Shown: in pieces, positions 3,773 to 8,225 of the stretch
How positions within the stretch are numbered: the stretch's first letter is position 1
How the letters are laid out: every line of letters begins with the position of its first letter
Source: Peptococcaceae bacterium BRH_c23
GTDB lineage: Bacteria; Bacillota_B; Desulfitobacteriia; Desulfitobacteriales; Desulfitobacteriaceae
NCBI GenBank assembly: GCA_000961805.1
Contig: LADV01000050.1
Coordinates: 1-8,225, forward strand
Length of the DNA: 8,225 nt
Direction of reading: 5' to 3'
Notes under the pieces: generated by a model
Seen by the model: only the letters and a program-made list of their open reading frames with translations
The model's database searches: none
Told to the model about the DNA's origin: nothing
Translations under genes and position numbers: made by a program

Positions 3773-5203
3773 ATGAGAGGTCTAAAAACTAAACTTGAAG
3801 TACTGAGTAAAGATGATTTGTTAAGAGTTCATGAAGCCACCCTGAAAATTCTTCGAGAAACTGGTGTCGTGTTTCACAGTGAAGAAGCTCTTAGTATTTT
3901 CAAAAAACATGGGGCTAGAGTTGAAAACAAAACGGTATTTATTTCTCGTGAAATGGTCGATCAGGCCTTGAGCACTGCACCTAAAACCTTCCGGATGAGA
4001 GCCCGCAACGATAAATACTCCCTGACGGTTGGTGAAGGATTCTTAGTACAGCCTAATGTAGGTCCTGTCTATATTCAGGACCTAGATAGGGGACGGCGCG
4101 AGGCAACCCTAGAAGACTATGCCAATATCCAAAAATTGTGTCAAGCCAGTGATGTTGTCGACTTGGTGGGTACCATTCCAGTCGACCCAAGTGATGTTGA
4201 TACTAATGACAAATATCTGATGATGATGTATGAAGCCCTAAAAAACTCTGATAAACCAGTGATAGGTTTCTGTGCTAACACTCAACAAGTACGAGAACAG
4301 TTGGATATGGTTGAGCTTGCGATGGGCAAACCTGGTTTTCTGATGGAAAATCATTGTACCGCTGTGTTGGTTAATTCTCTGAGTCCCTTAGGATATGCTC
4401 CCGATACTTTAGAAACGATGATTGAATACGCAAAACACAATCAGGTGATCATGCTCGCACCTTGTATTATGGCCGGAGTAAGTGGACCAATCTCCCTCTT
4501 GGGGACCGCGGTCCTCCAAAACACAGAAACCATCGCCGGATTAGTTTTGGTTCAATTGATTAATCCAGGTGCTCCACTGGTCTATGCAACCGCATCCACC
4601 TCGGGATATATGAAGGAGGCTACCTTCGCTGCTGGGACGCCGGAAGCAATGTTGATCAATACTGCCAGCTTACAAATGGGTTTGGATTTTTACCACTTAC
4701 CCGTGAGAACAATGTCTGGAATTACTCATTCTAAAACGGTGGATTGCCAGGCAGGGTATGAAAGCATGCAGAGCTTAATGATGGGAATGTTGAGTGGAGC
4801 CCATATGTCTGTTCAGAGTCTTGGAGTTTTGGATGCCATCATGACGACTTCTTATGAGAAATTCGTTATTGATGAAGAACTCGTCAGAAGAGTGAGGCGG
4901 ATTTCACAGGGTATTGATACTTCTGATGAAGCTTTAGCCGTCGAGGTCATTCAAGAGGTAGGGCATACGGGCACCTACTTGTCCCACATGAGTACCTTTG
5001 AAAAGTTCCGAACCTTATGGACTCCATCTGTATCGGATTGGGGAAATTATAGTGATTGGAAAAGCGCCGGCTCAGAAGACGTGACAGTCAGGGCAAATCG
5101 AAAGTTTAAACAAATTCTTCAGAACGCCCCTGAAACTTTACTCGATCCTGATACCGATAAAGCACTCCAAGCCTATATTGCAAAGGCTAAATCGAGCCAT
5201 TAA
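3773..5203 (+). CDS. MttB-superfamily amine:corrinoid methyltransferase without pyrrolysine
   Basis: A 476-residue member of the trimethylamine methyltransferase (MttB, COG5598) superfamily. It aligns along its length with the Pyl-containing gene downstream: an N-terminal segment (LRVHEATLKILRETGV / EEALSIFKKHGA), a central TIM-barrel region, and the active-site stretch YHLPVRTMSGITHSKTVDCQ ending in AGYE. At the pyrrolysine position it has Ile317 (codon 4721-4723), so it is one of the non-Pyl members. Characterised ones such as MtgB demethylate glycine betaine, and others use related quaternary amines. It would transfer a methyl group to the Co(I) corrinoid of the protein encoded next. The exact substrate cannot be deduced; a quaternary amine is favoured by family knowledge and the nearby BCCT transporter. 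The ATG follows GGGGAGG (3761-3767) at 5-nt spacing. It is first in the operon behind the sigma-54 promoter. The stop is TAA. Confidence 0.93.
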   Translation: MRGLKTKLEVLSKDDLLRVHEATLKILRETGVVFHSEEALSIFKKHGARVENKTVFISREMVDQALSTAPKTFRMRARNDKYSLTVGEGFLVQPNVGPVYIQDLDRGRREATLEDYANIQKLCQASDVVDLVGTIPVDPSDVDTNDKYLMMMYEALKNSDKPVIGFCANTQQVREQLDMVELAMGKPGFLMENHCTAVLVNSLSPLGYAPDTLETMIEYAKHNQVIMLAPCIMAGVSGPISLLGTAVLQNTETIAGLVLVQLINPGAPLVYATASTSGYMKEATFAAGTPEAMLINTASLQMGLDFYHLPVRTMSGITHSKTVDCQAGYESMQSLMMGMLSGAHMSVQSLGVLDAIMTTSYEKFVIDEELVRRVRRISQGIDTSDEALAVEVIQEVGHTGTYLSHMSTFEKFRTLWTPSVSDWGNYSDWKSAGSEDVTVRANRKFKQILQNAPETLLDPDTDKALQAYIAKAKSSH

Positions 5204-5334: not shown

Positions 5335-5967
5335 ATGAGTGATTTTGATCAATTGGCCGATTATGTATTCAAAGGTAATGCTGCTGCCGTAAAAGATCTG
5401 ACCCAGAAAATGGTAGATGGTGGTGGTGATCCCATGGAAATCATCTCCAAGGGGTTGCTGATCGGTATGGATATTGTTACCCCAAAATTCAAAGCTGGTG
5501 ATATGTATGTACCTGAAGTCATGATGTCTGCCAAAGCATTATCGGAAGGCATGAAAATTGTAAAACCTCTTCTCACAGGGTCACAAATCGCTGTCACTAA
5601 GACCATCCTGATCGGGACTGTTGCTGGAGACCTTCACGACATTGGCAAGAATCTTGTTGTTATGATTATGGAAAGCGGTGGCTTTAATGTTGTCGATCTA
5701 GGAGTGGATGTATCGCCGGAAAAATTTGTGGCAGCGATTAAGGAGCATGATGCCAAGATTGTGGGTTTATCTGCTCTGTTAACGACAACGATGCTCAATA
5801 TGAAAGCAACCATCGAATTAATCACTGAAGAAGGACTGCGTGACAAGGTCAAGATTCTGGTTGGAGGCGCACCCGTTTCTCAAAGCTTTGCTGATGAGAT
5901 CGGTGCAGATGGTTATTGCGCAGATGCTATGGCTGCCAAAGAAATGGCTACAGCAATTTTGAATTAA
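5335..5967 (+). CDS. mttC: Corrinoid (cobalamin-binding) methyl carrier protein, MttC/MtgC type
   Basis: A 210-residue cytoplasmic corrinoid protein of the usual size for methylamine/betaine systems. Residues 1-88 form the helical cap domain (B12-binding_2). Residues 90-210 form the Rossmann-like cobalamin domain, with the base-off/His-on motif DLHDIG at 99-104, where His101 is the lower cobalt ligand. SALLTT (146-151) and VGGAPVS (176-182) line the nucleotide-tail pocket. It accepts methyl groups from MttB-type proteins as methyl-Co(III) and passes them to a second methyltransferase, not seen here. AAGGAGG (5320-5326) lies 8 nt before the ATG. It sits between two MttB-type genes and only 30 bp before mttB, so it is probably the partner of mttB and perhaps of both; the gene symbol reflects that placement. 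A RamA-type reactivating protein would be needed from elsewhere. The stop is TAA. Confidence 0.94.
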   Translation: MSDFDQLADYVFKGNAAAVKDLTQKMVDGGGDPMEIISKGLLIGMDIVTPKFKAGDMYVPEVMMSAKALSEGMKIVKPLLTGSQIAVTKTILIGTVAGDLHDIGKNLVVMIMESGGFNVVDLGVDVSPEKFVAAIKEHDAKIVGLSALLTTTMLNMKATIELITEEGLRDKVKILVGGAPVSQSFADEIGADGYCADAMAAKEMATAILN

Positions 5968-5984
5968 TTCATAATGCAACAAGT

Positions 5985-5992
5985 GGAGGTGA
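5985..5992 (+). promoter_or_regulatory. Ribosome binding site fixing a TTG start for mttB
   Basis: GGAGGTGA (5985-5992) lies 5 nt before the TTG at 5998-6000. The nearby ATG at 5973-5975 is out of frame, and the ribosome binding site sits beyond it, so TTG is the supported start. Confidence 0.8.
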
Positions 5993-5997
5993 AATAA

Positions 5998-7470
5998 TTG
6001 AGAAGTGAAGTTAAAGCAGGATTCGGAAAATTTGAAGGCTTCGGACTGAATATATTTTCAGATGATGAACTTTATGATATTCACAGTGGAACGTTAGAGG
6101 TCTTAGAGAAAACAGGCATTAAAGTTGAATCCAAAGAGGCTTTAGATATTTTCGCGGCGGGAGGAGCTCATGTCGATTTTCAAACTCGTGTTGTCAAGAT
6201 TCCTCCTCATATCGTAGAAGACGCCATTCGTACAGCCCCTAATACCGTGTTATTGGCCGGACGTAATCCCAAACATGACATTATCTTAGGTGGCAAGAGG
6301 GTTCATTTTATTAATTTTGGTGAAGGGGTTTCAATCATTGACCCTTATACCAAAGAGTATCGGAAGACGACTAAACAGGATGTCATAAATATATCCCGCT
6401 TCTGTGATGCTATGGATGAGATGGATGCAGTTTTACGTCCTGTAGCCCCCCAAGATGTTCCGGCAGAGGCTGCAGTGGTTCACAATGCAGAGGCTCTCTT
6501 CAACAATACTTCTAAGCATGTCTTCATCGGCACTGAAGGCGGTAAAAACTTTAAAAAGGTCTTAAGAATGGCTGCAGCTGTCGTTGGAGGGGAAGACAAG
6601 CTGCGGGAACGCCCTATCTTCTCTTGCAATGTCTGCCCTACAAGCCCTTTACAATTGGTTGGACATTGCACTGAAGTGATCATCGAAGGTGCACGCGCTG
6701 GTATTGCAGTCAATGTACTATCCATGGCCATGGCGGGGGCTACCTCACCGATTACCTTAGCCGGTAGTCTTGTTACGCACAATGCAGAAGTCCTAAGTGG
6801 TATCGTCTTGAGCCAGCTAACTTGCAAAGGGGCGCCTGTTATTTATGGTAGTTCCACCACCATCATGGATTTGCGGTTTGCTACTGCTCCCGTCGGTTCT
6901 CCAGAATTGGGCATGATCAATGCCGGCGTGGCAAAACTGGCCCAATTCTATTTACTGCCTAGCTGGGTAGCTGGTGGCTAGGTAGATAGCAAAGTTCCGG
7001 ACGCCCAAGCATCTCATGAGTTCACGATTACCGCTATGCTGACAGCGTTGGCAGGGTCCAACCTGATCTATGGAGCGGGCATGTTAGAACTCGGCATCAC
7101 CTACGATTACGCCCAAATGGTGATGGATAACGAGATGGCTAGGATGATCAAAAAAGCAGTATGTGGGATCAGTGTGTCGGATGAGACCTTAGCTATAGAT
7201 GTTATTAAGCAGGTAGGCACCGCTGGTAACTTTATTAGCGAAGAACACACCTTCAAACATATGCGTACCCAATCCAAGAGTAATGTTATCGACCGTCGCA
7301 TGAGAGATGTATGGCTGGCAGACGGTGGTAAAGATTTTTCGGAAAGAGCCTATGAAGTGGCGAGAACCATTTTAGAAACCTATAAACCTGAGGGTTTGCC
7401 AGAAAGTGTTCAAGCTGAACTTCGAGGGATTGTCGAAGAAACAGAAAAAGAGTACGGTGTCAATAGTTGA
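5998..7470 (+). CDS. mttB: Trimethylamine:corrinoid methyltransferase MttB, with in-frame UAG read as pyrrolysine
   Basis: A single frame of 490 residues when the TAG at 6979-6981 is read through; it ends at TGA 7468-7470. This matches the roughly 490-500 residues of known MttB. Residues 1-327 and 329-490 are two halves of one MttB fold. The join reads [10 protein letters not shown], then UAG (residue 328), then [13 protein letters not shown], the family's conserved active-site context. In MttB pyrrolysine at this place is thought to bind and orient the methylamine so that its methyl group can be attacked by Co(I) corrinoid. The enzyme would convert trimethylamine to dimethylamine, methylating the corrinoid protein encoded 30 bp upstream. 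A UAG-terminated product would lack the C-terminal third. The start is TTG. Reading this as two genes (5998-6981 and 7036-7470) would be an annotation error, since the ATG at 7036 is internal and the 54 bases between are in-frame coding. A true nonsense mutation is possible but unlikely. Confidence 0.93.
6979..6981 (+). other. Recoded UAG codon, pyrrolysine (residue 328 of MttB)
   Basis: An in-frame TAG between GGC and GTA, with no second stop close behind. Coding similarity to the MttB family continues without a frame change on both sides. The position matches the known pyrrolysine site of the family. The non-Pyl paralog has Ile317 at the aligned place. Decoding requires tRNA-Pyl and pyrrolysyl-tRNA synthetase, whose genes are outside this window. 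Confidence 0.9.
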
Positions 7471-7621: not shown

Positions 7622-7695
7622 TGAAATTGAAGTAAAGATTTTGTATCTCAAGATATATCCTAAGCAAAACCATTTGAGGAGTTGTGATTTCAATA

Positions 7696-8225
7696 ATGAA
7701 AAGAGAAGCATTAACTCAGAAATTATTGGTATTAGGGGTAGACGGGATGGATCCCAAATTATCCCGGAAGTTCATGGACGAAGGAATAATGCCAAACTTA
7801 CAAAAACTTCTTGCAAAAGGCTCAGCAAGAGAAGACATGGGCCATTTAGGTGCCATGCCAACGATTACTCCTGCCTGTTGGACGACCTTAGCAACGGGTG
7901 CCTATCCTGGAACACACGGTATTACCTGCTTTTGGCGACAGTCACCACATAGCTTGGACGCAGTAGTATATAATATGGATTCCAGAAACTGTGAAGCTGA
8001 ACAGTTATGGAATATAACTGCTGAGGCCGGTCTGAAAACTTTAGTATGGCATTGGCCTGGTTCTGCTTGGCCTCCGACCAGTGACAACCCAAATTTAAGC
8101 GTTGTTGATGGAACACAGCCTGGTTCTGTTAACATGGGTGTGGCACAACTTGATTGGGAAAAAATTATCTTTGCTAGTGAGGAAATTAAAGAAATACAAT
8201 ATGCTCCAAAACTTGAACGTCCTGC
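7696..8225 (+). CDS. Type I phosphodiesterase/nucleotide pyrophosphatase family protein, N-terminal part
   Basis: Open from the ATG at 7696 to the window end: 176 complete codons and no stop, so the C-terminal part is missing. The N-terminus has the alkaline-phosphatase-superfamily pattern: LLVLGVDGMDP at 10-20, with Asp16 the expected first metal ligand, then MPNLQKLLAKGSA at 32-44, then PTITPACWTTLATGAYPGTHGI at 55-76, where Thr58 is the likely nucleophile and TG..P..HGI is the family signature. Such enzymes hydrolyse phosphodiester or pyrophosphate bonds using two metal ions. The substrate cannot be told, and no signal peptide is visible. GAGGAG at 7676-7681 is 14 nt before the ATG, which is rather far; GTG at 7684 is in frame but only 2 nt away. 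The start is therefore slightly uncertain. It lies 225 bp after mttB and may or may not share its transcript. Confidence 0.85.
   Translation, partial: MKREALTQKLLVLGVDGMDPKLSRKFMDEGIMPNLQKLLAKGSAREDMGHLGAMPTITPACWTTLATGAYPGTHGITCFWRQSPHSLDAVVYNMDSRNCEAEQLWNITAEAGLKTLVWHWPGSAWPPTSDNPNLSVVDGTQPGSVNMGVAQLDWEKIIFASEEIKEIQYAPKLERP

Follow-up and report, generated by a model that had tools for sequence, protein, structure and literature searches.

The mttB gene in this 8,225-nucleotide stretch of DNA from Peptococcaceae bacterium BRH_c23 (hereafter the window) raises the question of whether a TAG within it breaks the gene or is read as pyrrolysine, and of whether the message carries an element associated with that codon. 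A reading frame that begins with TTG at 5998 encodes 327 amino acids and is terminated by the TAG at 6979–6981; past it the unshifted frame remains open until the TGA at 7468–7470, for a total of 490 residues. The original prediction held that this is one gene with a UAG codon rather than two broken genes, and both the continuity of the frame and the flanking residues that it cited, SWVAGG before the codon and VDSKVPDAQ after it, are as described. When read through, the product scores 760 bits against TIGR02369, the trimethylamine (TMA) methyltransferase equivalog with a curated cut-off of 525; the N-terminal part alone scores 504 bits and the C-terminal part alone 235 bits, and their matches cover positions 1–313 and 316–469 respectively, adjacent and without overlap. 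Methanosarcina MttB had been named as a suitable comparison, and in the alignment to the M. barkeri chain (7xcl/7xcm) codon 328 falls on position 334, which is the pyrrolysine. Gly108, Met243, and Tyr358 of the window protein are the conserved counterparts of Gly110, Met249, and Tyr364 in M. barkeri, with Glu109 in place of Thr111 as a point of difference; active-site roles of the M. barkeri residues are described in the available portions of PMC9842639. The score above the cut-off, the UAG at the Pyl334 codon, and the active-site glycine and tyrosine are as expected of a pyrrolysine-containing member of TIGR02369, and the protein resembles the M. barkeri, D. hafniense, and other Desulfosporosinus genes over its whole length, with the UAG at the pyrrolysine codon.

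A scan of genome contigs yielded 23 mttB loci spread over 21 genomes, and in every one of the 23 the first in-frame stop is a TAG within a VAG(G/T)-stop motif; in all 14 genes of the window type (the window counted) the TAG occupies a single alignment column, a regularity that rules out chance. For the eight pairs in which it is computable, dN/dS relative to the window is 0.022–0.051 before the TAG and 0.029–0.115 after it (five pairs at greater distance had saturated dS values and were left out), and these low values after the TAG indicate that the downstream part is selected as a coding gene. A nonsense mutation or sequencing error at the TAG, splitting mttB into two dead pieces, is hardly credible and was rejected, because even though a plain gene caller stops the frame at 327 amino acids and many proteins of that length are found among the best 120 of 3260 database matches, the TAG is conserved within its motif throughout, purifying selection continues downstream of it, and pyl genes are present in relatives. 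We conclude that 5998–7470 is almost certainly a single selected mttB gene, with a UAG at the predicted catalytic pyrrolysine codon, of a Desulfosporosinus-like bacterium; the read-through score, the invariant TAG, and the low dN/dS all speak for the one gene originally proposed. Twelve of the 23 loci carry the Desulfosporosinus label; identity is 88–95% for nine of them and 80% for a tenth, and the other two, which are additional copies, stand at 53 and 69%. D. nitroreducens is nearest (95%), but the proportion of synonymous sites at which the window differs from it is 0.61 upstream of the TAG and 0.46 downstream, and for this reason we take the window to derive from another species.

A bacterium with a working pyrrolysine system, rare among bacteria, had also been anticipated. 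No pyl gene is present in the window, or in the 17–21-kb surroundings of this mttB in eight near relatives (L001–L005, L010–L012); at another locus (L008) mttB lies inside a pyl operon. All 11 near genomes and seven of ten further ones have a PylSc above its curated cut-off, which makes 18 of the 21 genomes with the 23 loci, the other three (G410, G411, and G412) all being metagenome-assembled records. Of the 15 short PylSc loci (L024–L038), 13 contain a tRNA-Pyl(CUA) according to ARAGORN, and for the remaining two the tRNA lies further off, in wider regions (L044, L046). PylB, PylC, PylD, and PylSn are above their cut-offs in both operons scanned (L044, L045). From these genes of its relatives a functional pyl system is expected for the window mttB as well, and rarity is a fair description, with UAG-mttB genes above the cut-off in 25 of 398, 5 of 395, and 2 of 396 genomes in samples of the phyla of G008, G413, and G417 respectively, each sample including its own centre genome. 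UAG is also an ordinary stop codon in the Desulfosporosinus loci, ending 51 of 258 open reading frames of at least 150 amino acids (counted in clusters of at least three frames, with each ortholog counted and clusters of pyrrolysine genes excluded). Two early assignments proved to be wrong: the PylSc clusters of L037 and L038 seemed to lack a tRNA-Pyl, which is found further away in the wider regions, and the TAG gene beside them, without an NCBIfam match, was taken for an unknown family, but is MtmB according to Pfam.

Pyrrolysine use in Desulfosporosinus is already known: the portions of PMC3639795 available to us include D. orientis, with a verified tRNA-Pyl, and D. meridiei among pyrrolysine organisms, and those of PMC7615293 report the use of PylRS and tRNA from Desulfosporosinus sp. 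I2. Because Desulfosporosinus with pyl genes has thus been published, the reading of this mttB and its pyrrolysine codon is correct but not new, and without the RNA hairpin described below the gene is an ordinary member of a known family; the hairpin is the newer part. The coordinates of the features are collected in Table 1.

Table 1. Features of the window in and around mttB.
Feature	Position	Strand	Basis
MttB-superfamily paralog without pyrrolysine, Ile at the aligned position	3773–5203	+	353 bits, under the 525 cut-off
Corrinoid protein (MttC-like), DLHDIG, presumed methyl acceptor of MttB	5335–5967	+	Below curated cut-offs of specific corrinoid families
Putative ribosome-binding site GGAGGTG, ahead of the TTG start	5985–5991	+	Read from the sequence
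mttB, read as one gene, 490 codons plus TGA, predicted pyrrolysine codon 328, TTG start	5998–7470	+	Reading frame, TIGR02369, alignment, dN/dS
In-frame UAG, aligned with Pyl334 of M. barkeri MttB	6979–6981	+	Frame, alignment, conservation in 23 loci
Match to Rfam RF02510 (PYLIS_3), 89.8 bits, gathering threshold 38	6979–7078	+	Rfam search
Predicted RNA hairpin GUUGG-CAGGGU-CCAAC, 5-bp form of the 6-bp RUURGC-AGGN-GCYAAY	7047–7062	+	Comparison
Further region of reduced synonymous divergence (codons +75 to +89)	7204–7248	+	Synonymous scan

The genes upstream of mttB include a paralog that, like MtgB and many of its relatives in the MttB superfamily, has a sense codon at the pyrrolysine position, and whose substrate is perhaps a quaternary amine. 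Further upstream are a divergent sigma-54 activator, a LysR regulator, and the end of a BCCT transporter gene, and both this transporter gene and the paralog are kept in all nine mapped Desulfosporosinus loci (L001–L006, L010–L012). The arrangement suggests an operon for quaternary amine and trimethylamine. By analogy with the families concerned, the UAG would be read by tRNA-Pyl(CUA) charged by the split PylSn/PylSc enzyme, with pyrrolysine supplied by PylBCD, and MttB would move a methyl group of trimethylamine via the pyrrolysine imine to the corrinoid of MttC (5335–5967). Downstream of mttB is a type I phosphodiesterase-like gene (7684–8225), kept in eight of the nine mapped Desulfosporosinus loci (not in L006) and followed by thioredoxin-like and reductase-like genes. 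We also note that in two relatives (L002, from 9308 onward, and L003, from 9278 onward) the stop codon of mttC is a UAG in frame with mttB, and that the interval between the genes contains neither TAA nor TGA (with one more UAG in L003), such that read-through would yield an MttC–MttB fusion; the mttC of the window has TAA as its stop codon.

The sequence behind the pyrrolysine codon is unusually constrained at synonymous sites. Over codons +15 to +29 after the UAG, synonymous divergence is 0.15 in nine window-type genes compared with a gene mean of 0.51, and 0.10 compared with a mean of 0.53 in the mttB paralog of the pyl operon (another nine genes). In the non-Pyl neighbour gene every 15-codon window is at 0.45 or above, pylB, pylC, and pylSc show dips near their ends only, and pylD never falls below 0.56; the mtmB set (n = 5, mean 0.13) consists of sequences too alike for a synonymous scan. 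Within mttB, divergence is also low at the gene start (0.27 in the window-type genes, 0.09 in the paralog) and over codons +75 to +89 (0.27 and 0.16 respectively). At codon +78, the valine codon GTA is strongly preferred in UAG genes (z 8.7), as opposed to non-UAG genes (z 0.5).

Codons +22 to +27, which encode Ala-Leu-Ala-Gly-Ala-Asn, contain the predicted hairpin. Its 6-bp form, RUURGC-AGGN-GCYAAY, spans 68–83 nt after the U of the UAG and is found in bacterial mttB genes of all three phylum samples (in the third, L225 has a perfect form and L226 is without it), with the group variants GUUGGC-AGGU-GCCAAC, GUUAGC-AGGC-GCUAAC, and AUUGGC-AGGN-GCCAAU. The window itself departs from the full form at +68 to +83 and has five pairs only, since codon +26 is a serine TCC and the sixth pair is therefore C-U. 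Alone, the window hairpin is predicted to fold at −3.6 kcal/mol (z −1.03), and four 6-bp forms at −5.8 to −7.8 (the L116 stretch is not homologous and was left out of the folding comparison); folds of the window RNA are not unusually stable (z 0.68, 0.04, and −0.66).

We compiled 172 distinct MttB-family sequences (209 before duplicates and short ones were dropped), 85 with a TAG and 87 without. The residues L-A-x-A-N, which allow the six pairs, are present in 60 of the 85 TAG genes, and 40 of these 60 form all six, whereas redrawing codons from each gene's own usage with the protein kept gives a mean of 2.90 (sd 1.63, maximum 9 in 2000 draws); thinned to less than 75% identity, 25 of 39 genes form the hairpin, against a null of 1.85 with a maximum of 8. 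Among 69 non-redundant UAG genes all six pairs are formed in 34, with gain or loss changing nine times on the tree, and the hairpin is thus not required for pyrrolysine insertion. Ten non-TAG genes have the L-A-x-A-N residues, and the three pairs that depend on codon choice are formed in none of them, although with 0.27 expected this is a small control, and the hairpin is absent from the five nearest non-TAG MttB genes, which have Ile, His, His, Gly, and Gln at the pyrrolysine position.

The hairpin was first spotted by eye and then tested, and a hold-out set and a scan of all positions serve as controls. In the hold-out, composed of genes fetched after the hairpin had been spotted and less than 80% identical to the earlier genes and to each other (40 rows of 47), 21 of the 33 genes with the required residues form the hairpin, compared with a null of 1.54 and a maximum of 7 in 5000 draws. 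When stems of 6 bp with loops of 3–8 nt were scored at all positions of 51 non-redundant TAG genes against codon draws, offset +68 with a loop of 4 ranked first (25 observed, 2.03 expected, z 16.5), and the runner-up was offset +95 (6 observed, 0.50 expected, z 7.6).

Because drift in G+C content makes all third positions covary slightly, we ranked the paired third positions against other third-position pairs. The pair formed by the third positions of codons +22 and +27 (22.3/27.3) ranks first of the 14,366 purine/pyrimidine pairs with enough rows and variation (GC 25, AT 14, GT 6, and AC 1), and in the hold-out it ranks 55 of 21,739 in the non-redundant set and 6 of 19,116 in the full set. 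On the tree the two positions change the same way 5.8 times and in opposite ways 0.1 times in seven independent pairs (median p 0.031). For pair 23.3/26.3 the rank is 294 of 14,366, but a weak 6254 of 21,739 in the hold-out, and its changes on the tree are not significant (3.0 and 1.4 of six independent pairs, median p 0.625). A basal extension of the stem through 21.3/30.3, at rank 145 of 14,366 and 662 of 21,739 in the non-redundant hold-out, is suggestive and we do not claim it, nor do we claim that the AGG loop forms a pseudoknot with a conserved ACC-U at codon +40, an idea considered from the codons. In the 69-row alignment 79.2% of the cells pair, compared with a shuffled mean of 76.5 (a value that none of 500 shuffles reaches), both sides are changed in 22 cells (matched in 1 of 500 shuffles), and the covariation score is reached in 4 of 500; two of the five shuffle measures are without excess, namely pairs changed on both sides (443 of 500) and further types (500 of 500), and RNAalifold gives no consensus structure over all 69 rows.

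The low synonymous divergence could also reflect codon bias, gene conversion, or G+C drift, with the hairpin simply following from the protein sequence ALAGAN, and it is true that the residues fix three of the six pairs and that third positions track genome G+C. This is a very improbable account, since codon-draw nulls that keep protein and usage give 1.5–2.9 where 21–40 are observed, the comparison with other third-position pairs takes G+C into account, and the paralog groups differ in their hairpin sequences (TTG..TCC/GCC as opposed to TTA..GCT) and are therefore not copies of one another.

Somewhat less remote, but still improbable, is that the sequence is a DNA palindrome, a protein-binding site inside the gene, and not an RNA structure. 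As a perfect inverted repeat, TTGGC-N4-GCCAA resembles the sites that DNA-binding dimers use. However, two positions switch jointly between G-C and A-T, and where the rest of the stem is formed (with the sixth-pair C-U allowed) G-U occurs six times and A-C not at all, a pattern that favors sense-strand RNA. A search with the pattern RTTRGCAGGNGCYAAY gave 58 matches in 36 of 398 genomes in the phylum of G008, with 21 for a reversed-pattern control, and genomes with a UAG-mttB carry up to eight matches. A TAG lies exactly 68 nt upstream in 41 of the 61 distinct pattern contexts, a fixed distance that also argues against a palindrome, and the 20 contexts without it lie away from mttB in loci fetched by the pattern itself; most of the 41 TAG-linked contexts come from loci fetched as mttB. 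The pattern search brought in 23 new contexts, with the TAG at 68 nt in three and not in 20, showing that the pattern alone occurs elsewhere too. Taken as a whole, the comparisons make it highly probable that the hairpin is a selected RNA structure.

What such a structure does is less clear. It may be a genuine RNA element that is unrelated to UAG decoding, acting in mRNA stability or in binding a regulator of methylamine genes, and we regard this as a serious contender. A ribosome at the UAG covers about 15 nt ahead, and a hairpin at 68 nt is beyond its reach; moreover, the full hairpin is missing from half of the UAG genes. Against this, among the MttB-family sequences compiled here only UAG genes carry the hairpin, albeit with small numbers for the non-UAG comparison (0 of 10, and 0 of the 5 nearest). 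The reading that we tentatively favor, from comparison of sequences, is that the hairpin acts in cis within the mRNA and is linked to the UAG. Since a ribosome stopped at the UAG covers only those 15 nt or so, the hairpin would be free to fold during the stop, and it would then melt on read-through. It might thereby promote productive decoding of the UAG or determine what becomes of the 3′ portion of the message that is left untranslated, and could plausibly constitute a UAG-linked RNA switch, fixed 68 nt behind the pyrrolysine codon, that couples recoding or message fate to pyrrolysine supply. In Acetohalobium, TMA in the medium is needed for pyrrolysine insertion, according to the portions of PMC11467909 available to us.

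The Rfam match to RF02510 covers the same 100-nt stretch behind the UAG, but the eight consensus pairs of PYLIS_3, an mttB model, share none with the hairpin. The accessible passages of PMC3639795 predict consensus structures for pyrrolysine genes and give none that is significant for mttB. The PYLIS element of archaeal mtmB is likewise a stem-loop after the UAG of a pyrrolysine methyltransferase, although of another gene; as described in the passages of PMC2933860 available to us, it has a modest effect, in that its replacement reduces but does not abolish pyrrolysine insertion, it shows limited covariance, and the earliest mttB genes, which were archaeal, reportedly contained it as well. We found no published hairpin of bacterial mttB in the titles, abstracts, and passages searched, a body of literature in which subscription papers are mostly not represented. 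If the proposed link to the UAG is correct, and as far as that literature shows, this would be the first covariation-supported bacterial cis element for pyrrolysine decoding. For the question of how bacteria in which UAG still serves as a stop come to decode one UAG as pyrrolysine, a short hairpin with synonymous covariation offers a discrete target, one that silent changes in a reporter can disrupt and repair. Such an element could further help to distinguish true pyrrolysine genes from damaged ones, and could be relevant to tools of genetic code expansion.

Several other observations concern these genes. In addition to the runner-up position at +95 noted above, TAG-mttB genes have a further rare hairpin position at −20 (7 observed, 1.28 expected). 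Four MttB proteins above the TIGR02369 cut-off have Ile, Gln, His, and His respectively at the pyrrolysine codon (L083, 8801–10207; L084, G006:C68:101096–102511; L109; and L137), and in a quick tree they form one clade amid the UAG genes, an apparent loss of pyrrolysine; tryptophan is present at this position in the database proteins P0006, P0016, P0018, P0022, and P0039. Some genomes have several PylSc genes above the cut-off, with three in D. nitroreducens (G008), three in Sporomusa (G414), and two each in G002, G005, and G009. A second tRNA-Pyl is present in G001 and G003 (L048 and L049), with one PylSc found in each genome, and a stretch of G009 (L023, 3760–7485) contains a tRNA-Pyl with genes of the pylB, pylC, pylD, and pylSn clusters, and no gene of the PylSc cluster in the part examined. 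The available portions of PMC9071458 describe two orthogonal pairs in one archaeon as unique to date and name a duplication in M. luminyensis. In G008 the three PylSc proteins are 51–72% identical, a tRNA-Pyl lies near each of them (L025/L040, L035/L041, and L042), the tRNAs share 55–63 of 72 positions, and the PylSc genes occur together with mttB or mtmB genes with a UAG.
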